Assembly: GCF_018882295.1 (NCBI RefSeq)
Contig: NZ_JACVOR010000001.1
Span: forward strand, 620,001 to 684,000
Direction of reading: 5' to 3'
Length of the DNA stretch: 64,000 nt
Source of the DNA: Polynucleobacter sp. 80A-SIGWE
GTDB taxonomy: Bacteria > Pseudomonadota > Gammaproteobacteria > Burkholderiales > Burkholderiaceae
The position numbers and the translations under genes were made by a program. How positions within the stretch are numbered: the first letter of the stretch is position 1; the number at the start of each line of letters is the position of its first letter. Positions 5,954 through 34,221 of this stretch are shown here, in pieces. Below the pieces are notes generated by a model, which saw nothing but the letters and a program-made list of their open reading frames with translations, did not search any database and was not told the DNA's origin.

Positions 5954-6295
5954 TGCATGTCAGTGTAATGAGTGGCGCTATCAAGAAGTAAAAGTTTTTC
6001 GTCTATCAGGCATTTAAGTTAGCTGTAGAGCTAGTGTGGATGAGGCTGTAGAGACGTTTTGCACCGCAGCTTTACATCCTCGTAAGGCGCAAAAATTGCA
6101 AGAGTCTCAACTGATAGGAAGGACTATCAGAACACTACTGGTAGAAAATCCTGCCCGGTGGAATACTAGATGTATGGGTTGGGCAGCTCTTTGGAAGTTG
6201 AAAAATAGTAAAAAAGTTGGATTTTGAGCACTTTTTTATTATATGAAATAAGTCCCCACTAACTTATTTAACTCATTGAATTTAAAGGATTAAAT

Positions 6296-6343
6296 ATGAA
6301 AATTAGGGACTTCGTTAGGGATCATCCTTATTTCGAGACCTAA
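6296..6343 (+). CDS. Possible very short ORF (15 residues)
   Basis: ATG preceded at good spacing by AAAGGA encodes MKIRDFVRDHPYFET and then TAA. There is no recognised homologue. It could be a leader peptide or the 5' stub of a lost gene. The only support is the ribosome site. Confidence 0.2.
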   Translation: MKIRDFVRDHPYFET

Positions 6344-6370
6344 AAGTTATGGAAATAGAGTCCTTTATTC

Positions 6371-6399: not shown

Positions 6400-6472
6400 G
6401 GCTCATGTTTTTTACTTATTGCATCGCAACATAAATTAGAAGTTTAATTTTCGGTGTGCTGCAAGACCATGA

Positions 6473-7456
6473 ATGATTAAATGTTTTTCTACCAATTCGA
6501 GTGACTTACAACTAGCGCAACCAGCAACGGTTAACGCTAAAGAGTTGTTAGCTCATGCACTGTCACCTGTGTATCGGGTGATGAATGGTTTATTGATCGT
6601 GACTGTTTTCATGATCGTGGGACTCTGGCTCTCCGGCAATGGAACTCAAGCAGGCGCTTTTGATTTAGCTCGTATCCTGGTTCCCGATGAAGCGCGCCAT
6701 ATGGTGTGGCAAAACGGTTTTGGAATGCTCGATCAGTACCAAGAAGAAACCCCAAAGGCCATTGCAGATAAAGAAATCGCCAATGTGATCTACGGAAAGG
6801 CTTCGGTCAGCCCTAATAGCGGCCTCATGAGCGCCAAGCAGCAAACAGTTGCTCTCTTGATGCCTTCAGTGGCTCATGCCCAGGTAAAGCCGATTTCTCA
6901 TTTATCAGATCGCATCCCGGCTTCGAAAATCGATCCGCAGGCGCTCGATTCAAAGTTGATGGTATCGATTCAGAATCAACGTGCAGTTGCTGACTTCTTT
7001 GAGAAGAAGTACAAGTTAGATCGTGCCAAGATTGAGGAATATGTTTCCAATACGGTATTGATTGCAAAAGAAGTCAACATTGATCCAGTTTTGTTGCTTG
7101 CCGTCATTTCTGTTGAGTCGAACTTTAATCCGCTGACTAAAAGTCAGGCTGGTGCCGAAGGTTTGATGCAGGTGATGACTACCATTCATAAAGATAAATA
7201 TGCTTTGTATGGTGGCGCTACTGATGCTGTTAAGCCTGAGGTGAATATTCGCGTAGGTGCTTATATTTTGAAATATTTGATTGCCACTAGCGGCTCATTG
7301 CGCAATGGCTTGAAATATTACGTTGGTGCTGCAAATGCAGAGACTGATGGTGGCTATGCTGATAAGGTGATGGCCGAAAGAAATCGTTTGATTGGCTTGT
7401 GTCAGCCAGCAGTGCAAAATAAATTAACCTTGAACGGAAAAGACTTGCGTTCGTAA
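6473..7456 (+). CDS. Membrane-anchored lytic transglycosylase (SLT domain)
   Basis: 327 residues. A single hydrophobic segment (about 37-55) follows a short cytoplasmic N-terminus and anchors the protein in the inner membrane. The C-terminal SLT domain shows VISVESNFNP with catalytic E215, GAEGLMQVM (228-235) and the later YVGAANAETDGGYADKV. Such enzymes cleave the MurNAc-GlcNAc bond of peptidoglycan in the periplasm, giving 1,6-anhydro products. A low-complexity linker of about 100 residues separates anchor and catalytic domain. It is a single-gene unit between a promoter-like site and a strong terminator. Confidence 0.85.
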   Translation: MIKCFSTNSSDLQLAQPATVNAKELLAHALSPVYRVMNGLLIVTVFMIVGLWLSGNGTQAGAFDLARILVPDEARHMVWQNGFGMLDQYQEETPKAIADKEIANVIYGKASVSPNSGLMSAKQQTVALLMPSVAHAQVKPISHLSDRIPASKIDPQALDSKLMVSIQNQRAVADFFEKKYKLDRAKIEEYVSNTVLIAKEVNIDPVLLLAVISVESNFNPLTKSQAGAEGLMQVMTTIHKDKYALYGGATDAVKPEVNIRVGAYILKYLIATSGSLRNGLKYYVGAANAETDGGYADKVMAERNRLIGLCQPAVQNKLTLNGKDLRS

Positions 7457-10249: not shown

Positions 10250-10423
10250 GGTGCCTAAAAGCCCTCAAATTGCCGGGGTCGATGATTTAAAATAGATGTC
10301 TCGGTCCAGTGCGTGAAATTACACCCAAGACAGCCAAAAGCGCCTGAAGTGTTGCGTGCGGAATGCGAGAGTGGTTCGGTATAAGACCGGGCCCTAATAT
10401 TTATCCATATCGAGGAAACATCA

Positions 10424-25121: not shown

Positions 25122-25994
25122 CTAACGCCTGATAATTGCTTCTACTAGTGGGTGCTGAATTTTCTTCTCTGAGCGAATGGCATAAAAATATTCGTAGATA
25201 TCCTCGCACTTACCAATCATTTCGATGTGATAAGTTTCTTGTAAGTCTTTCTTGATACTTTCTCCAGCTGGAAAGACTCCAAGGCCACTAGCTGCGAAGG
25301 TTTTTAGTAGGGCGCTATCCTCAAACTCCCCTGCAATATTGGGATTAATGCCATTTTCAGCGAACCATTGGTCTATCAAATGACGAACCTTCGAGTGAGA
25401 GGTTGGCAGAAGAATGGGTAACTCATTCAGGCACGCAGGAAAGGCTTTTTTAGATTGTTTGAGTAGTTTCTTGGGCCCAAACCATGCAATGGATGACTTG
25501 ATTAATTCTTCACTGTAGACGTGAAGATTTTTGTTGATTGGAGCGGGTCTGTCAGCCAGCACGATATCCAATCTATGTAAGGCCAAGTCTGCTAAGAGAT
25601 CTTCAAACTCACCTTCATGCGCAATCAGCTGCACATCATTTTTTTCTAGGATAGGCTCCAACAACTGCCTGGTTACCAGCTTGGGTAGGCCATCCGATAC
25701 GCCAACTGTAATTTTGGTTTTAGGAGAGCTTGCTGCCTCCCTCACTGCCTCAGGCAAGCGCTCGCCCAAGAGAAAGATTTGATCTGCAATTTCTAAGGCG
25801 GCAAACCCAGATTCGGTTAAGGCGATACCCCGTCCAGCCGGCTTAAATAGTAGATATCCCAGTGATTTCTCTAATTCATGTACTTGGGCGCTAATCGTCT
25901 GGATCGCAATATTAAGGCGTTCGGCAGCCTTAGACATACTGCCTTCTTTGGCTACTACCCAGAAATAGTAAAGGTGACGGTAGTTATAGAGCAT
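25122..25994 (-). CDS. LysR-type regulator, NhaR-like
   Basis: 290 residues. The N-terminal winged helix NYRHLYYFWVVAKEGSMSKAAERLNIAIQTISAQVHELEKSLG strongly resembles NhaR, the Na+-responsive activator of nhaA, followed by a LysR substrate-binding domain. Here the partner is an SbtA-type Na+/bicarbonate permease, so Na+ or bicarbonate is a plausible inducer. It is co-directional with and upstream of sbtA, which is not the usual divergent LysR layout. Confidence 0.85.
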   Translation of the reverse strand: MLYNYRHLYYFWVVAKEGSMSKAAERLNIAIQTISAQVHELEKSLGYLLFKPAGRGIALTESGFAALEIADQIFLLGERLPEAVREAASSPKTKITVGVSDGLPKLVTRQLLEPILEKNDVQLIAHEGEFEDLLADLALHRLDIVLADRPAPINKNLHVYSEELIKSSIAWFGPKKLLKQSKKAFPACLNELPILLPTSHSKVRHLIDQWFAENGINPNIAGEFEDSALLKTFAASGLGVFPAGESIKKDLQETYHIEMIGKCEDIYEYFYAIRSEKKIQHPLVEAIIRR

Positions 25995-26071
25995 TTTGAT
26001 TATCAGGTTTTTACGAAATTACTATCAATATATCTCTGCTTTTTGTTAAGTGCAAATCAGCCTAAATTAAC

Positions 26072-26098
26072 CCCATGGAAATCCATGGAATTCATGGG
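26072..26098. repeat. Three spaced CATGG repeats upstream of the TerC-UspA gene
   Basis: CCATGG at 26073-26078 and 26083-26088 plus CATGGG at 26093-26098; the outer CCCATG/CATGGG pair forms an inverted repeat. It ends 10 bases before the ribosome site, so it could be an operator or a 5'-UTR hairpin. Confidence 0.45.
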
Positions 26099-26119
26099 TA
26101 ATTAAATGAGGAGATGAAA

Positions 26120-27385
26120 TTGGAACTATTTAGCCCCGAATTTTTTTCGGCTTTGCTGGCAATCATTGTGATTGACTTGGTGCTCGCGGGTGATAACGCC
26201 ATTGTGATTGCGATGGCCGCTAGAAACCTCCCTGCCCATTTGCAGAAAAAGGCAATTGTCTGGGGCGCTGTCGGTGCGATTGCAGTCCGAAGCGCAATGA
26301 CGCTATTGGTTGTCTACTTATTAAAGATCCCTGGTTTGATGCTGATAGGCGGCTTGCTATTGGTTTGGATTGCTTACCGCTTGCTAAATCCCGAGCAAGA
26401 GAATGATGAGCATGGCCAAGCATCCACCACTTTTTGGGGTGCTATGAAAACGATTGTGATTGCAGACGCCATCATGGGCCTAGACAACGTTCTCGCGGTG
26501 GCAGGCGCTTCGCACGGTAGCTATGTGCTGGTTGTCCTTGGATTGTTAATTAGCATTCCCGTGGTTATCTGGGGTTCAACTCAAATCCTCAAGCTGGTCG
26601 AGCGCTACCCTTCAGTTACCTACTTGGGGGCTGGCGTACTGGCATGGACAGCCGCAAAAATGATGATCTCTGAGCCTCTCTCTCAAGATTGGCTTGTCTC
26701 CCAGAGCCCCGCTTTGGAATACGTGATTCAAGTGGCTGTTGTATTGGGTGTATTAACTAGTGGGTTTATTAGAAGTAGGCGTGCGCTTGAAGGTGTGATT
26801 GCTCCTTCGGTTGTAGTTCCCGAGTCTGCAAATGTCGTTTTACAAGAGCAGTCCCCTAATTATGGAGAAAGCAAAATGAATAAAATTTTAATTCCTGTAG
26901 ATGGTTCAAAAAATTCAGATATGGCAGTAAAGCATGCCGTGAAGACTTATGGGCAGGATCCCGGTGCACATTTTCACTTGTGCAATGTGCAGCCTACCTT
27001 ATATCGCCACATCGGCAAATTTTTTAGCAAGCAAGATATTAATGAGTGGCATGCTGAACGTGCGGCACAGGCGGCAGCCTCTGCATCTGCATACCTTGAA
27101 AATCGCGGCCTAAACTTTTCCTTTGCTTATGTGTGCGGAGATAAAGGTAACGCCATTCGTGATGAAGCAGTGCGACTTGAATGCAATCGTATTGTGATTG
27201 GCACTTCAAAGCAAAACTCCCTGAGTCGTTTATTTGAAAACTCTACTACCGCTAAGTTGCTTGAAATCAGCGATATTCCAGTCGAGGTGGTAACAGGTAG
27301 CTCCTTGCCTGCACTTGAGCGTTGGGGTATTCCGGCTCTGGGTGCTGGCGCTGCCACTGCACTGATGGCTGTTGTGATCGATTAG
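26120..27385 (+). CDS. TerC-family membrane protein fused to a universal stress protein domain
   Basis: About 421 residues. The N-terminal half (about 1-215) is a TerC/YjbE integral membrane unit with IDLVLAGDNAIVIAMAARNLP and DAIMGLDNVLAVAG, whose acidic residues bind metal; TerC proteins of the Alx/YceF type export Mn2+. The C-terminal part (from about 253) is a UspA domain starting MNKILIPVDGSKNSDMAVKHA with IVIGTSKQNSLSRLF near its end, then a short hydrophobic tail. TTG 26120 gives the family-typical MELFSPEFF and a 6-base gap from AGGAG; ATG 26114 abuts AGGAG with no gap. An internal ATG with its own ribosome site begins the UspA part. Confidence 0.85.
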   Translation: MELFSPEFFSALLAIIVIDLVLAGDNAIVIAMAARNLPAHLQKKAIVWGAVGAIAVRSAMTLLVVYLLKIPGLMLIGGLLLVWIAYRLLNPEQENDEHGQASTTFWGAMKTIVIADAIMGLDNVLAVAGASHGSYVLVVLGLLISIPVVIWGSTQILKLVERYPSVTYLGAGVLAWTAAKMMISEPLSQDWLVSQSPALEYVIQVAVVLGVLTSGFIRSRRALEGVIAPSVVVPESANVVLQEQSPNYGESKMNKILIPVDGSKNSDMAVKHAVKTYGQDPGAHFHLCNVQPTLYRHIGKFFSKQDINEWHAERAAQAAASASAYLENRGLNFSFAYVCGDKGNAIRDEAVRLECNRIVIGTSKQNSLSRLFENSTTAKLLEISDIPVEVVTGSSLPALERWGIPALGAGAATALMAVVID

Positions 27386-27408
27386 TTTTAATCCAGCTGT
27401 TCTCTTTT

Positions 27409-27436
27409 ATGCCCTCGTTCTGAGGGCATTTTTTTG
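27409..27436 (+). terminator. Intrinsic terminator of the TerC-UspA gene
   Basis: ATGCCCTC (27409-27416), 5-base loop, GAGGGCAT (27422-27429), followed by a run of seven T. Confidence 0.92.
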
Positions 27437-27445
27437 CCCATCTAT

Positions 27446-27464
27446 ATTCAGTTAAATACTGAAT
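27446..27464. promoter_or_regulatory. Palindromic operator candidate upstream of the HPF-like gene
   Basis: Perfect arms ATTCAGT and ACTGAAT with spacer TAAAT, 80 bp before the HPF-like start and just after the preceding terminator. It is AT-rich and dyadic, as a metal- or stress-responsive repressor site would be. Confidence 0.4.
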
Positions 27465-27543
27465 TAAAGTCAATTAAATTCTGCTTTATTAGAAGTAAAG
27501 ATTGTCCTATTCTGAGTCTGTGTTTAACAAAGGAGAGATGGCA

Positions 27544-27876
27544 ATGAATGTGATCTTAGATGCGAGAGAAGAAGTTGAGTCGGAATTAAAAGTCTTCACA
27601 GAGAATCGGGTGAAGTTTTCATTAAAGCGGCTCTTTTGGATGGTACGAAAAATCAAGATTCAATATTCTGCAGTCCCGTCATCTAAGACGACTTGCAATC
27701 AACATTGCATGATTAGTTTAGAGACATTTGACCACCATCAAATCGAAGTGAGTATGACCGCAAGAGATAAACGGATGGCTCTGGAAATGTGCCTTAAGAA
27801 AATCTATAAGCTGATTCAGAAGGCGTTTCATAAAAGTCAAAAATATGGGCGATTTTCAAAACACGTCTACGTATGA
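27544..27876 (+). CDS. Small HPF/RaiA-like (ribosome hibernation factor-related) protein
   Basis: 110 residues from ATG 27544, chosen because GGAG lies 8 bases upstream (ATG 27538 is too close). MNVILDAREEVESELKVFTENRVKFSLKRL, then a central strand pair (KIKIQYSAVP, CMISLETFDHHQIEVSMTAR) and a helix (RMALEMCLKKIYKLIQKAF) follow the beta-alpha-beta-beta-beta-alpha order of the S30AE fold of HPF/RaiA. Identity to classical HPF is low, so a different RNA-binding or regulatory role is possible. It ends 60 bp before a manganese riboswitch. Confidence 0.5.
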   Translation: MNVILDAREEVESELKVFTENRVKFSLKRLFWMVRKIKIQYSAVPSSKTTCNQHCMISLETFDHHQIEVSMTARDKRMALEMCLKKIYKLIQKAFHKSQKYGRFSKHVYV

Positions 27877-27910
27877 GAAATTCACCCATAATTCAATTTA
27901 TTCGTCATAA

Positions 27911-27933
27911 GTATGATCTAATTACTGTCATAC
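27911..27933 (+). promoter_or_regulatory. Promoter -10 inside an inverted repeat, start of the RND-operon leader
   Basis: TATGAT at 27912-27917 is a good -10 element; the -35 region is poor, suggesting activation or weak basal use. GTATGA (27911-27916) and TCATAC (27928-27933) form a perfect 6-bp inverted repeat across the -10 and the predicted start, so a regulator could also bind here. Transcription from it would begin just before the riboswitch aptamer. Confidence 0.4.
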
Positions 27934-28034
27934 ACATGGGGAGTAGCCTGCTCAGTTTTCTGAGTCCCTTATGCCGACAATTCGACCTTTGGGTCCGGTA
28001 TAAGGGTGATTCAATCTCAAGGCAAGACCATTTT
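27934..28034 (+). promoter_or_regulatory. yybP-ykoY manganese riboswitch (aptamer)
   Basis: The conserved pieces of the yybP-ykoY (Mn2+) riboswitch occur in order: GGGGAGUAGCC at 27938-27948 (L1), a hairpin CUCAG-UUUU-CUGAG at 27951-27964, then a long arm CCCUUAUGCC / GGUAUAAGGG (27966-27975 with 27997-28006). That arm encloses the L3-type bulge GACAAUUC (27976-27983) and the inner hairpin GACC/GGUC. GGCAAGACC (28021-28029) closes the junction. AUGG (27936-27939) pairs with CCAU (28028-28031) as P1. GGGGAGUAGC, CAAUUCG and GCAAGACC match the Lactococcus Mn2+ riboswitch as I remember it. This family switches expression on when Mn2+ is high. Confidence 0.92.
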
Positions 28035-28058
28035 AATTTTTATAAATGGTTTTCTTTT
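28027..28058 (+). terminator. Riboswitch expression platform: terminator competing with P1
   Basis: ACCAUUU (28027-28033), a 10-base loop, AAAUGGU (28044-28050), then UUUCUUUU. The bases CCAU (28028-28031) that close aptamer helix P1 are the same ones that build the left arm of this terminator, so the two structures exclude each other: metal-bound P1 gives read-through, metal-free RNA terminates. The stem is AU-rich and modest, which suits a switch. Confidence 0.8.
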
Positions 28059-28156
28059 GAATTTGCTACACCAATCTTTGATACACCTACTCAAAACCGT
28101 GCTCAGATCCCTGATTTGGGGAATTTCTCGCCTATTTGTCGTCTCAGGGACGGATA

Positions 28157-28192
28157 ATGAGAAGTCACATCTTTTTTCTAAAATTGTCGTAA
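28157..28192 (+). CDS. Possible leader peptide coupled to the efflux operon
   Basis: ATG 28157 with AGGGA six bases upstream encodes MRSHIFFLKLS and stops in TAATG, overlapping the ATG of the next gene, whose own ribosome site is poor. AGGGA lies in UCAGGGA (28144-28150), which can pair with UCCCUGA (28108-28114). Translation of the operon's first gene may therefore depend on this short frame. No homology support is possible at this length. Confidence 0.3.
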   Translation: MRSHIFFLKLS

Positions 28193-29457
28193 TGAATCGC
28201 TTAACGTCTGCATCGATACTGACCCTCTGCATCCTGCTCTCAGGTGGAGTTAGTGCGCAAGGTAAAAAGCCACTTACGCTCAATGAGTTGATTGTCATTG
28301 CATTGGAATCGAGCCCTCAAGTCTTGGCTGCACGAGATCAATCTAAGGCTATCAAAGGACAACTTTCTACAGCTCGCGCAATTCCTAATCCGGAGTTTGA
28401 GTTAAACACTGGCCAACAAAGATCGGTATCGGGCCCATTAACTACAGGTAATGTGTCATCGTGGTCAGTAACGCAACCTCTAGACATGCCCTATACCCGT
28501 TATCCCAGAGTGAATGCTGCTGAGGCGAATGTTCGGGCTGCGGATGCGACACGAATTGCATTCGAGATTGAAATGATTTCAAGAGTGCAACAGCGTTTTT
28601 ATGAATTAATGCGTCGTGATGCAGAGCTAAAAGCTGCTGAAGAAGATTTGGGGTTAACGAAGCAAATTCGTGATCGCATGCAAATTCGGTATGACGTTGG
28701 CGAGACTGCTCGATTTGAATTAATTCGCGCACAAACTGAGTTCCTAAATGCGCAAATTAATACGGAATCTAGCAAGCTTAGGGTTGAGCAGGCTAAGGGG
28801 CAACTCAGGCAGGTGGTCGGACATAACTTGCCCGCTGATTATGAGGTGGTTTCTCAAATCTTCAAGATTGAGCCTTTACCCCCTTTACCAACCTTGCTCA
28901 GTGAGTTGCACTCGCAGAGTCCTGAGTTACAAAGAGCAAAAGCAGAGGTTGAGGCGACTGAATCTAGACTCAGTTTCGAGCAGAACTCTCGCTTACCAAA
29001 GCTATCCATCAAGGCACAACAATATAACGACCCTAACTTTACTGACCGCCTCTATGGTTTAGTGGTGAGCATTCCTATCTGGGACTTTAAGGGTGGTCAG
29101 ATTGCAGAGGCGGAAGCCAATGCATCCAAAGCTAAGAATCAATTTAATGCACAAAGCCAGAGTCTGGAGCAGCAGTTAGAAACAGCATACAAGCTCTATC
29201 AAATGACTAGTTATCAGGTAAAGATTCTGGATCAAGATGTGGTTCAGTTGGCCTCAAGTGCACGACGGATTGCGGAGGTTTCTTACCGCTACGGCGAGCG
29301 GGGCATGCTCGAGTATTTGGATGCGCAAAGAACATTTAGAGTGGCTCGTAATGACTTAATTAAAGCGCGGTTTGATTTGGCTTCGGTTGTTACAGAGATT
29401 CAGCGTTTAAGAGCAACTCCGGAGTGGATTGCAAAAATTGAGAGTGGAAAGCAATGA
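28192..29457 (+). CDS. Outer-membrane efflux factor, CzcC/TolC family
   Basis: 421 residues with a signal peptide (MNRLTSASILTLCILLSGGVSAQ) and two TolC-type repeats of long coiled helices (e.g. EAEANASKAKNQFNAQSQSLEQQLETAYKLYQ). It forms the outer-membrane channel of a tripartite metal efflux system. I place the start at the signal-peptide ATG; a longer in-frame reading from 28006 would translate the riboswitch and its terminator. It follows the Mn2+ riboswitch leader and overlaps the adaptor gene by four bases. Confidence 0.88.
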   Translation: MNRLTSASILTLCILLSGGVSAQGKKPLTLNELIVIALESSPQVLAARDQSKAIKGQLSTARAIPNPEFELNTGQQRSVSGPLTTGNVSSWSVTQPLDMPYTRYPRVNAAEANVRAADATRIAFEIEMISRVQQRFYELMRRDAELKAAEEDLGLTKQIRDRMQIRYDVGETARFELIRAQTEFLNAQINTESSKLRVEQAKGQLRQVVGHNLPADYEVVSQIFKIEPLPPLPTLLSELHSQSPELQRAKAEVEATESRLSFEQNSRLPKLSIKAQQYNDPNFTDRLYGLVVSIPIWDFKGGQIAEAEANASKAKNQFNAQSQSLEQQLETAYKLYQMTSYQVKILDQDVVQLASSARRIAEVSYRYGERGMLEYLDAQRTFRVARNDLIKARFDLASVVTEIQRLRATPEWIAKIESGKQ

Positions 29458-30800
29458 AGCAAGAATTCATAGCAAAAATTGACAAATTAAAGGAGCTTTA
29501 TGCTCGTTATAGGGCAGTGGCAAAGGTTTATGTTCAGAAATGGATTGCCATCGTCATTAAAACTCAGAACGACTGGTATGCACTGACCCATGAGTGGTTT
29601 AGTACGCATTTACCTCGCGTTGCTCAGCAATACGATAAGAGCCCTCAGTGGACGCAGAAAGGACTTTTTTACTTTCCTTGGTTTTGTTTATTTTTGATCA
29701 TCCTAAATTACTTCAATGTGTTTGATCGTAGTCCAACCATTAAGTCGGTCCAGGATCCCAATATAGTTATTGTTAATGCCGATTTGCGCAAAATGATTAC
29801 AGATGGCAATCTTTATACAGGCTCATTTGTTGAGGAGTTGCGAGCATCTGGTCGCATTGATTTCAACGAGCTCTTTTTATCCCGCATTGGCGCTAATGTC
29901 ACGGGGCGAGTTTCTGAAATCTTGGGCGTTCCTGGTCAGATCGTAAAGCAGGGGGATATCCTCGCTAAAATTACATCAACTGAATTAACGCAATCCCAAC
30001 TCGCTTACCTAAAGGCCAAGAGCGCCAGTCAGTTAGCTGATCAAGCTGCTAATCGGGCCAGAATTTTGTACAAAGAAGATGTGATCGCATTAGCTGAGTT
30101 GCAAAGACGTGAGTCAGAGGCTAGTAGCGCAAAGGCAGAATTTCGTGCGGCTAATGATCAGCTGAGAGTGCAAGGCATGGATCAGCCTAGCATTGATCGA
30201 CTGGCTAAATCTGGTGTGATTGAATCCACCAATAATGTCATTGCCACTATTCCTGGCGAAATCGTTGAGCGCAAGATTAATAAGGGTCAAGTCGTTCAGC
30301 CTGCAGAAGCACTCTTTACGGTGGCTGATTTGAGTACTTTATGGGCCGTATCTGAAATACCCGAGAGTAACGCCTACTTGATTCACAAGGGGCAAAAAAT
30401 TACCTTGATTATTCCAGCCCTTAGGAATGCCGAGGTTGAAGGTGTAGTTGCTCACGTGGACTCGATTGTGAATCCTCAAACACGTACGGTAGTTGTCAGA
30501 ATGGAAGTACCCAATAAAGACAGTCTGATCAAACCTGGCATGTTGGCAACCATGATGATCGAAAGTCAGCCTACCGAGAGACTATTGGTGCCGGTAAGTG
30601 CTGTGATTCGTCAAGATAATCATGATCATGTTTTTATTCGCGAAGATGAAGATACTTATCGCATGGTCACTGTTAAATTGGGGCCAGAAGGGAAGGGCTA
30701 TCGCCCTGTAATTTCCGGGCTTAAAGAGGGTCAGGAAATTGCTGTTAACGGTGCCTTTCATTTGAATGCCGAACGTAAGCGACAGTTGAGCGGTGGATAG
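29454..30800 (+). CDS. Periplasmic adaptor (membrane fusion protein) of an RND metal-efflux system, CzcB/CusB-like
   Basis: 448 residues. The membrane-fusion core is clear: barrel-sandwich halves (NVTGRVSEILGVPGQIVKQGDILAKI and VIATIPGEIVERKINKGQVVQPAEALFTVADLSTLW), an alpha-hairpin between them, then beta-barrel and membrane-proximal domains. Unusually, the transmembrane anchor (about 70-90) is preceded by about 70 residues of charged, helical cytoplasmic sequence; most adaptors start with the anchor. HDH (about 388) near the C-terminus could bind metal. It overlaps the preceding gene by ATGA, and the pump gene starts 5 bases downstream. Confidence 0.88.
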   Translation: MKQEFIAKIDKLKELYARYRAVAKVYVQKWIAIVIKTQNDWYALTHEWFSTHLPRVAQQYDKSPQWTQKGLFYFPWFCLFLIILNYFNVFDRSPTIKSVQDPNIVIVNADLRKMITDGNLYTGSFVEELRASGRIDFNELFLSRIGANVTGRVSEILGVPGQIVKQGDILAKITSTELTQSQLAYLKAKSASQLADQAANRARILYKEDVIALAELQRRESEASSAKAEFRAANDQLRVQGMDQPSIDRLAKSGVIESTNNVIATIPGEIVERKINKGQVVQPAEALFTVADLSTLWAVSEIPESNAYLIHKGQKITLIIPALRNAEVEGVVAHVDSIVNPQTRTVVVRMEVPNKDSLIKPGMLATMMIESQPTERLLVPVSAVIRQDNHDHVFIREDEDTYRMVTVKLGPEGKGYRPVISGLKEGQEIAVNGAFHLNAERKRQLSGG

Positions 30801-30805
30801 ATCTC

Positions 30806-33800
30806 ATGATTGAGAAAATTGTTCGACTTTCACTTCAGCAACGTCTTCTAGTTGTCATTATTGCGCTCGTCCTTTTTGTAGCTGGACTATTGGCAACAAA
30901 GCGTTTGTCAGTCGACGCTTTCCCGGATGTCACCAACGTACAGGTGCAAATTGCCTCTGAGGCACCAGGACGCTCACCTGAAGAGGTGGAGCGCTTTGTC
31001 ACGGTGCCAATTGAGTTGGGAATGACGGGCCTTCCAGGGTTAACAGAAATGCGTTCCCTGAACCGTAACGGCTTGTCTGTGATTACCTTGGTATTTACTG
31101 AAAAAACAGATTTGTATTTCGCTCGTCAATTGGTTACCGAGCGTTTGATTGAGGTGGCTTCCAAAATGCCGGAGGGTATTACTCCAGTAATGGCGCCTCC
31201 ATCTACGGGGCTGGGAGAGATCTACCAATACACCCTAGACCATCCCTCCGATGGAGATAGGCAGCTAACAGTAGAAGAGCTCGAGGAACGTCGTACGATT
31301 CAAGATTGGGTTGTTCGTCCAATGTTGCGGTCTATCGCAGGTGTTGCGGAAATTAATACGCAGGGTGGTTTTGCCCGTGAATATCAAGTACTTGTTAATC
31401 CAGAACGATTGCGCCATTACCAAGTTAGTTTGCGCGAAGTGTATGAGGCACTTGCTAGAAATAATGCCAATTCTGGTGGTGGGCAGTTGCCTAGCTACGC
31501 AGAGCGTTTCTTGATTCGAGGCGTGGGATTAGTTACCAAGCCTGAAGATATCGGAAAAATTATTCTCAAAGAGGTTAAGGGGATTCCGGTTTACGTTAAG
31601 AATGTCGCGGAAGTGACTATCGGTAGTGAGGTTAGGCAGGGCGCCGCTATTAAGAATGGTTATACCGAGAGTGTTGCCGGCATCATTCAGATGATTCGTG
31701 GTGGTAATGCGCGAGAGGTAGTCAATCGCATTAAACAAAAGGTTGCCGAGATTAATGAGGGTAAGTTATTGCCTGATGGCCTGCAGATTGTGCCTTTTTA
31801 TGATCGTACGGACTTAGTAAATGCTGCGATGTTCAACGTAGCAAAAGTGTTGATTGAGGGTGTGATCTTGGTGGTGATCCTGCTCTTCCTGTTCCTAGGT
31901 GACGTGCGCTCCTCTCTCATTGTGGTGGCAACCTTAATCCTCACGCCGCTACTGACATTCTTAGTGATGAACCGCTACGGCATTTCTGCCAACCTCATGT
32001 CGCTTGGAGGTTTGGCGATTGCAATCGGCATCATGGTCGATGGCTCGGTAGTGGTAGTAGAAAATACCTTTGCCAAGCTAGGCGAAAGACTGAAGACTGG
32101 TGAGTCAAAGATTCGTATTATTTTGGAGGCCGCTACCGAGGTTGGTACACCGGTACTCTTTGGTGTTGGCATCATTATTTTAGTTTTCATGCCTCTGCTA
32201 TCTCTGGAAGGTATGGAAGGAAAGATGTTTGCGCCAATGGCTATTACGATCGCCATCGCACTCACTATTTCACTAATTCTTTCTTTCACCTTATCCCCAG
32301 TTCTTTGCTCTTACATCTTGAAGGGCGGAAGTGAGGATGACACAAAAATTGTGGCTCGTTTACGCGCACCATATGAGCGTTGGTTGCATTGGTGTCTTGC
32401 TAATCCAAAGTTAGTTGTCAAAAGGTCTTTAATAGGATTAGCAGCTAGTATTGTTGGATTTACCTTGCTTGGAAAAGCATTTATTCCAGTGATGCAAGAG
32501 GGTTCTATTACCCCAGTGATTGTGCGAGCCCCGAATATCTCTTTGGATGAATCCATTAAGTTGGAGTTTGAGGCGATTAAACGCATCATGACTATTCCAG
32601 ACGTTCAGATGGCAGTATCTCGCCTGGGTAAAGGGGAATCCCCTGCAGACCCAGGTCAGCCTAATGAATCTGACCCGATTGTGACTCTCAAGCCCTTGGG
32701 TGATCGCAAGCTCAGCCAGGAAGAGATCGCGCAAGAGATTCGCGATAAGTTGAAGACCTTACCGGGGATTGAGCTCTCTATTTCTCAGCCAATTGCTGCG
32801 CGTGTAGATGAGATGGTTTCTGGTGTGCGCTCTCAAGTGGCAATTAAAATTTTTGGAGATGATATGGCTACACTCCAAAAGCTGGGCGCTCAGATCAGTC
32901 AAATTCTGACTAAGATGAAAGGTAGCAATGACTTGCGCATCGAGCAAGCCACCGGGCAAAATTATCTAAACATCAACATCAATCGCGATGCAATCGCTCG
33001 ATATGGAATTAATGTTTCCGACGTGAATGATGTTATTGAGACGGCGATAGGTGGTAAGCAGGCAAGTACGGTGTATGAAGGGGAGAGACGCTTTCCTTTA
33101 GTTCTACGCTATCCAGCCCCATATCGGGATAAGGTTGATGCAATTGAAAACATTATTTTGCATTCACCTGATGGTGCTCAAGTCTTGATGCGTGACTTAG
33201 CTGATATTTCTTTGGTTGATGGCCCAGCACAGATTTCTCGAGAGTCTGGTAAGCGACGTTTAGTCGTTGGCGTCAATGTGGATGGTCGAGATCTTGGTGG
33301 ATTCGTAAAAGAGGCGCAAAGTCTCATCGCTAAGCAGGTGGAGTTACCGCAAGGCTATAGCCTGGAGTGGGGCGGGCAATTTGAAAACATGGAACGCGCT
33401 ATGGCTCGTTTGATGATCATCATCCCGATAACGATTTTGGCGATCTATTTCTTACTCTTCATGCTTTTTAAGTCGATGCGCTTGGCGGGTTTGATTATTT
33501 TGGTTTTGCCATTTGCTTCGATTGGCGGCGTGTTTGGACTCTTTATTACTGGAGAGTACCTCTCGGTTCCGGCTGCAGTGGGTTTTATTAACCTCTGGGG
33601 TATCGCTGTACTCAATGGCGTGGTGCTGATTTCGTTTATTAAGCAATTGCGTGAGAATGGCTACTCAATGGAAGATGCTCTACTGCATGGCTGTGGCCAT
33701 CGCTTTAGGCCGGTCATGATGACTGCTTCAGTGGCGATGTTGGCCTTAGTTCCAATGCTCTTTTCTGGTGGACCTGGTTCTGAGGTTACTCGCCCATTGG

Positions 33801-33901
33801 CGGCTGTAGTAATCTCAGGGCTAATAACCTCAACCGCATTAACATTACTAGTACTCCCAGTCTTATATAGATGGTTTGAAGATAAAGAGGTGGAAGCATG
33901 A
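30806..33901 (+). CDS. Heavy-metal efflux RND pump, CzcA/CusA family
   Basis: 1031 residues with the RND layout: helix 1 near the N-terminus, two large periplasmic loops (about 33-340 and 555-880) and helix bundles after each. The proton-relay region in helix 4 reads AIGIMVDGSVVVVEN (406-420). Asp412 and Glu419 are kept but the first Asp of the CzcA DFG...DGA...EN signature is Ala, closer to the CusA/AIG type, while DGS resembles CzcA. The pump therefore fits neither the Zn/Co/Cd nor the Cu/Ag subgroup cleanly. Under a Mn2+ riboswitch its substrate may be Mn2+ (inference). Confidence 0.92.
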   Translation: MIEKIVRLSLQQRLLVVIIALVLFVAGLLATKRLSVDAFPDVTNVQVQIASEAPGRSPEEVERFVTVPIELGMTGLPGLTEMRSLNRNGLSVITLVFTEKTDLYFARQLVTERLIEVASKMPEGITPVMAPPSTGLGEIYQYTLDHPSDGDRQLTVEELEERRTIQDWVVRPMLRSIAGVAEINTQGGFAREYQVLVNPERLRHYQVSLREVYEALARNNANSGGGQLPSYAERFLIRGVGLVTKPEDIGKIILKEVKGIPVYVKNVAEVTIGSEVRQGAAIKNGYTESVAGIIQMIRGGNAREVVNRIKQKVAEINEGKLLPDGLQIVPFYDRTDLVNAAMFNVAKVLIEGVILVVILLFLFLGDVRSSLIVVATLILTPLLTFLVMNRYGISANLMSLGGLAIAIGIMVDGSVVVVENTFAKLGERLKTGESKIRIILEAATEVGTPVLFGVGIIILVFMPLLSLEGMEGKMFAPMAITIAIALTISLILSFTLSPVLCSYILKGGSEDDTKIVARLRAPYERWLHWCLANPKLVVKRSLIGLAASIVGFTLLGKAFIPVMQEGSITPVIVRAPNISLDESIKLEFEAIKRIMTIPDVQMAVSRLGKGESPADPGQPNESDPIVTLKPLGDRKLSQEEIAQEIRDKLKTLPGIELSISQPIAARVDEMVSGVRSQVAIKIFGDDMATLQKLGAQISQILTKMKGSNDLRIEQATGQNYLNININRDAIARYGINVSDVNDVIETAIGGKQASTVYEGERRFPLVLRYPAPYRDKVDAIENIILHSPDGAQVLMRDLADISLVDGPAQISRESGKRRLVVGVNVDGRDLGGFVKEAQSLIAKQVELPQGYSLEWGGQFENMERAMARLMIIIPITILAIYFLLFMLFKSMRLAGLIILVLPFASIGGVFGLFITGEYLSVPAAVGFINLWGIAVLNGVVLISFIKQLRENGYSMEDALLHGCGHRFRPVMMTASVAMLALVPMLFSGGPGSEVTRPLAAVVISGLITSTALTLLVLPVLYRWFEDKEVEA

Positions 33902-34221
33902 TGGAAGTGAAGGCGGTCATTCGCCCAAATAAATTAGCTGCTCTCAGAACGGCATTATTGGAGACCCCAGGTTTCCCGGGGATGACGGTAACTAAAGTTG
34001 AGGGATGTAGCGCTCCCAATCGCACCGGTAAGTTCAATATCAAAGATGAGCTCACGGACTACTCTGCGAAAGTGAAGGTTGAAATTGTTTGCAATGATGA
34101 GGTTGCGCAGATTTTCATGGACCGGATTGTGACTATTTGCCAAACAGGTCAAGTAGGGGACGGTGTAGTTTGGTGTACTGAGGTTCCTAAAGCCTTCTTT
34201 ATTGCAAAATCCACGCCATAA
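33898..34221 (+). CDS. PII-like signalling protein of the metal-efflux operon (PII-NG type)
   Basis: 107 residues with the PII fold: MMEVKAVIRPNKLAALRTALLE (strand 1, helix 1), PGMTVTKVEGC, and the B-loop-like TGQVGDGVVWCTEVPKAFFI. The T-loop region (SAPNRTGKFNIKDELTDYSAKVKVEIV) lacks the uridylylated Tyr context of GlnB/GlnK. PII-like proteins of this group are known beside heavy-metal RND operons, where they are thought to sense metal or nucleotide. ATG overlaps the pump's TGA (ATGA). Cysteines in VEGCS, IVCN, TICQ and VWCT could bind metal. Confidence 0.82.
   Translation: MMEVKAVIRPNKLAALRTALLETPGFPGMTVTKVEGCSAPNRTGKFNIKDELTDYSAKVKVEIVCNDEVAQIFMDRIVTICQTGQVGDGVVWCTEVPKAFFIAKSTP

Follow-up and report, generated by a model that had tools for sequence, protein, structure and literature searches.

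The leader of a heavy-metal RND efflux operon in the freshwater genus Polynucleobacter raises two questions: whether its RNA is a Mn2+ riboswitch of the yybP-ykoY class, and whether the pump that follows it exports manganese. We addressed both in a 64,000-nucleotide stretch of the Polynucleobacter sp. 80A-SIGWE genome (the window, to which coordinates refer unless a locus is named) and by comparison with related genomes. Our reading, to which we give a probability of roughly two in three, is that a divergent yybP-ykoY Mn2+ riboswitch leads a four-gene RND/PII operon, that high Mn2+ brings about expression of the operon, and that the pump lowers Mn2+.

A leader with the hallmarks of the yybP-ykoY aptamer

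On the forward strand, positions 27936-28031 carry the hallmarks of the yybP-ykoY (Mn2+) aptamer, recognised from an RF00080 match, the fold, an alignment of relatives and covariation, and they lie ahead of the gene for an outer-membrane factor (OMF). Every aptamer piece that the preliminary description had named is there, in the right order. The switch helix P1.1 pairs 27936-27939 with 28028-28031; L1, GGGGAGUAG, reads GGGGAGTAG at 27938-27946; P1.2 joins 27946-27948 to 28021-28023; and the P2 hairpin (27950-27955/27960-27965) spans 27950-27965. The long arm (27966-28006) comprises P3.1 (27966-27976/27996-28006), the asymmetric loop L3 (27977-27983) and P3.2 (27984-27987/27992-27995), and is followed by P4 (28007-28009/28017-28019) and the 3' element GGCAAGACC (28021-28029). 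P1, P2, P3 and P4 meet in a four-way junction that is supported by covariation, and the fold of 27930-28062 beats those of 200 of 200 dinucleotide shuffles (z -4.31).

The available part of PMC6754395 attributes Mn2+ specificity in this class to N7 of an invariable L3 adenosine, A41 in the L. lactis aptamer (loop UCAAUUC, numbered UCA41AUUC) and A48 in that of X. oryzae (loop ACAUACU). The window loop, ACAATTC in the DNA and ACAAUUC in the RNA, is one base off the loop of the crystallised L. lactis aptamer and retains the Mn-contacting adenine, the equivalent position being A27979.

Just 5' of the leader, at 27914-27922 (+), the sequence TGATCTAAT resembles an extended -10 promoter element. 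The pattern TGnTC[TA]AAT, or the looser TGnTnW[AG]AT, was present within 60 nt upstream at 68 of the 70 RND-linked loci described below (a raw count, with no shuffled control), and at 65 of the 70 the match lay 13-18 nt 5' of GGGAGTAG. An extended -10 element so near would accord with a transcription start belonging to the leader itself.

Standing with respect to Rfam and to chance

The search with the RF00080 covariance model that had been proposed as a check gave a divided answer. RF00080 was the best Rfam match within 25900-28300 (22.5 bits, E 0.0014), but its score fell short of the gathering score of 45 bits, so that the leader is not an RF00080 member by Rfam's own rule; that score is an annotation threshold, not a biochemical property. 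An Rfam gathering scan of the whole window did not report the leader and returned a tRNA and the icd-II RNA motif alone. The latter, at 10279-10415 (121.7 bits), belongs to a riboswitch candidate found mostly in Polynucleobacter (PMC8632094, in the portion available).

An E-value near 0.0014 is in itself no proof of a riboswitch, because RF00080 matches in two other genomic loci, L035 (E 0.0019) and L038 (E 0.0055), look chance-like at similar E: they fall in coding sequence, lack the 3' half by eye, and give no match to R1, a second model that we built from 22 Polynucleobacter variants only, with no canonical sequences. In the 2.0 Mb genome of the window RF00080 gave two further, far weaker matches (E 0.04 and 0.3), both resembling coding sequence by eye, and R1 gave a single match; the score of R1 on the window copy follows by construction, that copy being in the training set. 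Across 186 genomes of the genus RF00080 had matches at E<=0.01 in 35 and above the cut-off in eight, and R1 had 83 matches in 81 (E<=0.001), both searches having used stricter filters by which some weak matches were lost. All eight genomes above the RF00080 cut-off owe it to a form linked to MneA-type genes, and no RND- or TerC-linked copy among the RF00080 matches listed attains it.

It is conservation and covariation in the 22 relatives, not the RF00080 E-value, that place the element beyond chance. We aligned the 22 sequences, including the window copy, to a hand-written structure of 31 pairs. Both sides had changed in 14 of the 31 pairs, with 81 double-change cells (31.7 in shuffles), 95.2% of cells paired (85.3% in shuffles) and a covariation score of 0.374 (0.193 in shuffles); further pair types were not in excess of shuffles (31 vs 32.0). 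Shifting the partners by 1-3 columns brought pairing down to 24-47%. The double-changed pairs are distributed over P1.1 (one), P2 (three), P3.1 (five), P3.2 (one) and P4 (four); the G-C pairs of P1.1 and the whole of P1.2 are uninformative on covariation because they never vary. A consensus fold computed independently of the written structure agrees with it on P1.2, P2, P3.1 and P4, omits P3.2, and puts some of the P1 pairing in a different register.

Kinship with accepted riboswitches could be read from the reach of R1 beyond the genus. A family-level scan matched 181 of 398 genomes, genus members counted in. In 20 loci of other genera, hand-picked mostly for high R1 scores, R1 gave 21 matches, and 19 of these overlap with RF00080 matches above the cut-off, at 54-112 bits; by these comparisons the variants and accepted RF00080 members are homologous in sequence and structure. 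Genes identified by eye after 18 of the 21 are mntP (six), UPF0016/MneA (six) and a Na+/Ca2+ exchanger-like multi-pass protein (six), and none of the 21 has the pump's OMF or RND gene downstream. Two matches of 40-43 bits that are not above the RF00080 cut-off, L118 1308-1443 (+) and L124 5880-6014 (-), precede a gene for a small secreted-looking protein of 175-186 aa, with a terC-like gene next in L124 (by eye). Locus L109 carries two back-to-back Mn riboswitches, 6240-6352 (-) and 6447-6571 (+), both above the RF00080 cut-off, one ahead of mntP and the other ahead of a UPF0016/MneA-type gene.

The assignment to the yybP-ykoY class thus proved right in kind, through homology, binding-site residues and covariation, but below the Rfam threshold, a cut-off that leaves a conserved sub-type of yybP-ykoY undetected.

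Linkage to the pump operon across Polynucleobacter

That the aptamer is the leader of an OMF/adaptor/RND/PII operon was part of the preliminary description, and the linkage is kept in dozens of related genomes. At 70 of the 83 genus R1 matches the pump's OMF is the next gene downstream. We typed 90 leaders, the 83 R1 matches and seven further canonical ones, by their next gene, an OMF match downstream defining the RND type: 70 precede the OMF of the pump operon, nine terC, eight an MneA-type gene and three a LysR-type gene. The terC gene after the nine copies is a second terC gene. The eight MneA-linked (UPF0016) leaders are high-scoring and canonical, with MDSLLISTGVVALAEMGDKTQ or near it by eye. 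The LysR-linked leaders, L105 6314-6445 (-), L106 1223-1355 (+) and L107 3385-3516 (-), contain TGGGAGTAG, have the loops TCAATTC, TCAATAC and TCAATCC, score 33-38 bits and lie about 15 nt ahead of a LysR-type regulator gene.

Starting from the pump gave a similar picture. Orthologs of the RND protein (74-100% identity; paralogs at most 42%) were present in 84 genus genomes, hand-read among the matches listed at >=74% identity, a procedure that misses unlisted fragments. The leader stands directly ahead of the operon in 67 of these 84. Four of the other 17 are at contig ends, and inspection of the remaining 13 by eye found two decayed leaders (L129, L145), one partial deletion (L133), two with another hairpin (L131, L144) and eight with nothing recognised; Rfam reported no other known RNA at the 13 loci at E<=0.5. 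The pump therefore persists without the switch where the leader has been lost or has decayed. In L129, L133 and L145 the OMF and adaptor genes still align beside the decayed or partly deleted leader. In the aptamer's stead, L131 (1513-1597) and L144 (same place, other strand) share a long hairpin, ATGCGAGT...ACTCGCAT, about 120-200 nt 5' of the OMF gene. Rfam has no match to it, and it may be an alternative leader RNA of this pump. Three genomes (G027, G033, G172) have leader and OMF and no listed RND ortholog; G033 and G172 had no RND match at E<=1e-100, and the sole match of G027 fell outside those listed. The RND genes of G031 and G051 contain several in-frame stop codons and that of G036 contains one, which may reflect decay of the pump in some species; R1 still detects the leader.

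We considered whether the leader might instead belong to the genes upstream of it. In the window these are a TerC (YjbE family)-Usp fusion at 26114-27385 (+) (TIGR03717, PF03741, PF00582), for which RF00080 searches of the region and genome found no riboswitch of its own, and a small ORF between it and the leader with no Pfam match. This candidate was rejected, as the upstream neighbour varies by clade and the OMF is constant downstream: L001, L016, L020 and others have terC and the small ORF there, L012 and L023 a same-strand tRNA-Leu gene immediately ahead of the leader, and L022, L028, L030 and L032 an Sbt gene in divergent orientation. In many genus loci terC adjoins the pump. Strict phyletic complementation with other Mn exporters was of no use as a guide, a GDT1/UPF0016 gene being present in 178 of 186 genus genomes and MntP above its cut-off in none (two weak matches lie beneath it); with GDT1/UPF0016 so widespread, the pump fills no gap in Mn export. 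A search of the window's genome for Nramp came up empty.

Binding-site residues in the linked leaders

The third L3 base, counted in an alignment fitted to R1, is A in all leaders of every type: 70/70 RND-linked, 9/9 TerC-linked, 8/8 MneA-linked and 3/3 LysR-linked. L1 (GGGGAGUAG/GGGGAGTAG) is exact in 69 of the 70 RND-linked leaders, and the 3' GGCAAGACC in 61, the others having GGCCAGACC (seven), GGCAAGACU (one) and GGCGAGACC (one). Around the fixed adenine the RND-linked loops comprise 14 heptamers in 70 leaders, with UCAUUAC the commonest (19), UCAAUUC in 18 and the window's ACAAUUC in four. Every RND and terC loop listed fits the pattern NCANNNC, whereas the eight MneA-linked leaders have the X. 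oryzae loop ACAUACU; the genus thus holds two L3 loop types, of which the RND and terC copies have the Lactococcus kind.

An alternative hairpin and the output step

Downstream of the aptamer, 28024-28033 can pair with 28044-28053, and this hairpin with its U-rich tail (28024-28059, +) forms a terminator-like expression platform in the predicted fold. The CCAU at 28028-28031 is shared: it closes P1.1 with 27936-27939 and also lies inside the hairpin 28024-28053. The earlier claim that P1 bases also form a terminator holds in that the P1 3' strand enters an alternative hairpin, but a standard terminator scan called nothing in the window, the stem having two G-C pairs where the scan demands three. 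In the available text of PMC11087558, Mn2+ stabilises P1.1 of the L. lactis riboswitch, whose 3' strand otherwise enters a terminator hairpin.

A P1.1-capturing hairpin recurs in 51 of the 56 distinct leaders linked to RND (20% of shuffles have one) and is missing from all eight distinct leaders linked to TerC (16% of shuffles have one). Exchange of the P1.1 strand with a downstream hairpin thus has good support from sequence. In the window's clade the hairpin tail is UUUUCUUUUG, and intrinsic termination is plausible there. Among the 51 hairpin-bearing leaders, the 10 nt after the hairpin contain 5-8 U in 28 and 1-4 U in 23, and it is this weak U-tract in 23/51 that makes intrinsic termination doubtful in other clades. 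In the TerC-linked copies a stretch resembling a ribosome site, and the start codon, follow P1.1 by no more than about 30 nt.

The operon and its pump

The four genes run in the direction of the leader. The OMF (OEP/TolC-type, Pfam PF02321) is encoded at 28192-29457 (+), its start set at the ATG at 28192 because a signal-peptide-like stretch comes next by eye. It is followed by a periplasmic adaptor of the HlyD_D23/CzcB type (29454-30800, +; PF16576 and TIGR01730 above cut-off), an RND permease of the CusA/CzcA heavy-metal family (30806-33901, +; TIGR00914 at 1115 bits against a cut-off of 701, and PF00873), and a PII-like protein whose gene overlaps the end of the RND gene (33898-34221, +; PF00543 at 51 bits against a cut-off of 25). 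A P-II domain (PF00543) beside a Czc-type pump is a feature of PII-NG. Genes for an Sbt-type bicarbonate transporter (PF05982; 24150-25118 and 25122-25994, both on the reverse strand) recur near the RND-PII operon inside and outside the genus, also in L169, L181 and L186; by analogy with SbtA-SbtB, the comparison for such a pairing, the PII-like protein might go with the Sbt transporter.

Pairwise HMMER alignments, with the register counted along them, were used to compare the permease with CusA, whose copper site we take to be Met573/Met623/Met672, and with ZneA, whose site residues are presumably E136, D654 and D658. The window protein has V at CusA Met573, E621 at Met623 and E669 at Met672; ZneA E136 is conserved as E138, D658 is replaced by E669 and D654 by A665. 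All 65 ortholog sequences, among them repeats from overlapping loci, have E138, E621 and E669. The V/E621/E669 set would fit a hard divalent ion and argues against a CusA-like Cu+/Ag+ site. The acidic residues are not specific to Mn2+, however, since pump relatives at 55-74% identity have them too (E138 in 48/48, E621 in 45/48 and E669 in 48/48, repeats included). Nor does the TM4 motif, AIGX3DGSX3VEN, name a substrate, as it departs from the HME1/HME2 signature DFGX3DGAX3VEN (PMC3637150, in the part available).

Relatives of the permease are frequent in other betaproteobacteria; within the order 124 of 330 genomes carry one at E<=1e-250, a figure that takes in several members of the genus and family. 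Among the best 80 named relatives, 34 loci belong to the genus by identity and name, including P. aenigmaticus, P. sinensis, P. yangtzensis, P. hirudinilacicola and P. bastaniensis, and 46 lie outside it. R1 matched 24 of the 34 genus loci (L154 at just 19.8 bits) against one of the 46 outside; it found no aptamer at the other 45, and at 32 of the 46 an OMF was identified with 1.5 kb or more of sequence ahead of it. An Rfam gathering scan of 12 outside-genus loci gave no RF00080. The PII gene is present at 33 of the 46. The one outside-genus match, L186 from a Burkholderiales MAG, has aptamer, terC, OMF, adaptor, RND and PII in one direction (terC, OMF and PII confirmed by Pfam), with an R1 score of 22.1 bits, the loop UCAAUAC, GGGGAGUAG and GCGAGACC, and links terC, Mn aptamer and pump for a second time. 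Rfam did not recognise the L186 leader at E<=1, nor those of L105-L107 at E<=0.1, although R1 detects them and their motifs can be seen at a glance.

Proposed mechanism and alternatives

At high cytosolic Mn2+, the ion would bind between L1 and L3, with A27979 giving a soft N7 contact; bound Mn2+ would hold P1.1, block the hairpin 28024-28053 and let the pump operon be transcribed. At low Mn2+ the hairpin would form and expression would stop early. The pump would in turn reduce cellular Mn2+. The architecture, binding-site residues, RF00080 homology, pump linkage and mutually exclusive pairing on which this proposal is built are observed; Mn2+ binding and ON-switch logic we infer from the L. 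lactis and X. oryzae RNAs. Mn2+ as the pump's substrate comes from genomic context and is the best and most economical reading of it.

A functionless element, resembling the aptamer by chance or through decay, is hardly conceivable. The sub-threshold score, the similar E-values of L035 and L038 and the decayed copies in some genomes are what it could appeal to, and covariation, invariant binding-site bases and conserved linkage rule out chance and already refute it for the group as a whole. We consider it quite improbable, too, that a variant L3 has changed the specificity of the leader to another transition metal (e.g. Cd2+, Co2+, Ni2+ or Fe2+), one matching a Czc-like pump: the adenine is invariant in 70/70 and the exact L. 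lactis UCAAUUC occurs in 18/70, against the diversity of 14 heptamers in 70 RND leaders, the score of the window copy below the RF00080 cut-off, and the observation that Cd2+ too gives a stably docked X. oryzae RNA (PMC6754395, available part).

An unlikely but weightier alternative accepts a true Mn2+ riboswitch and has the pump export one or more other divalent metals, Mn2+ serving as a proxy for overload. The literature ties terC and MneA-type genes to Mn2+, and in the same genus relatives of the aptamer stand ahead of both; terC is moreover a neighbour of the pump at many loci of the genus and, outside it, at L186. These contexts speak for manganese, and against them stand the many pump relatives in the order (124/330) with an aptamer at 1/46 named loci outside the genus, a TM4 motif unlike the HME1/HME2 signature, which indicates no substrate, and the Geobacter PII-NG-czcABC operon, upregulated by Co(II) in the available part of PMC7726332. 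Rho-dependent or translational control in place of intrinsic termination, at least in clades that have no U-tract, is somewhat doubtful and, being compatible with a Mn2+ riboswitch leading the pump operon, would change the output step only. The weak U-tract (<=4 U per 10 nt) in 23/51 hairpin-bearing leaders, the 0/8 TerC-linked hairpins with their ribosome-site-like stretch and start at most about 30 nt from P1.1, and E. coli mntP, whose control involves Rho as well as a translational riboswitch (PMC11647493, in part), favour it; the window-clade tail UUUUCUUUUG and a hairpin that recurs far above shuffles favour termination.

Comparison with known systems

The leader is confirmed, at the level of sequence comparison, as a real sub-threshold yybP-ykoY variant with a conserved operon link and a regulon that we did not find in print. 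Among the openly licensed PMC papers searched, none of those listed by title treated yybP-ykoY ahead of an RND system, the co-mention of yybP and CzcA concerned cobalt and B12, none joined a Mn2+ riboswitch to RND efflux, and no listed title or abstract opening named an RND manganese pump. The yybP-ykoY target lists in the parts seen of PMC3766115 and PMC7011215 include no RND pump. RNA motifs were found in Polynucleobacter necessarius and the similar Beta proteobacterium CB (PMC8632094, in the portion available), and yybP, Mn2+ and manganese are all absent from the main text of that paper.

The leader resembles the L. lactis type of RF00080 in P1.1, L1, the four-way junction, an L3 with the Mn-contact adenine, a GCAAGACC 3' end, and a P1.1 strand shared with a downstream hairpin. 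It differs in scoring 22.5 against 45 bits, in a hairpin poor in G-C, and in preceding a tripartite RND operon and not mntP, mneA, terC or a P-type ATPase. The operon is like CusCBA and CzcCBA in uniting OMF, adaptor and RND genes, with TIGR00914 well above cut-off. Regulation of CusCBA and CzcCBA is by two-component or other protein regulators, whereas the window operon has a riboswitch-like leader and a PII-like fourth gene; its permease has V/E/E in place of the Met triad of CusA (HME4), and a TM4 that is not the DFGX3DGAX3VEN of HME1/HME2 (Czc, Cnr). A PII-like gene within a Czc-type RND operon is shared with PII-NG-czcABC of Geobacter sulfurreducens, where PII comes first and the operon is cobalt- and Fur-responsive (PMC7726332, available part); the word riboswitch is absent from that paper.

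The aptamer-like leader suggests that a pump of this kind can be dedicated to Mn2+ export. The larger proposal, of a Mn2+-dedicated, riboswitch-controlled and PII-coupled tripartite RND pump as a fixture of Mn2+ homeostasis in numerous Polynucleobacter, with Lactococcus-type aptamers under the Rfam cut-off perhaps hiding further such regulons, seems to us evenly poised between right and wrong. If true, it would be, as far as we know, the first RND system assigned to manganese, and would offer a substrate prediction for a large heavy-metal RND branch that often has a PII partner. The Mn2+ exporters MntP, MneA/UPF0016, the MntE-type CDF proteins, P-type ATPases and TerC/Alx are of the inner membrane. 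Among those under yybP-ykoY control, terC/alx and UPF0016 (mneA) are led by the same aptamer family and both are present in the genus, but their products are single membrane proteins, unlike the window pump; an RND system under a Mn2+ sensor would give Mn2+ a route out across the whole envelope.
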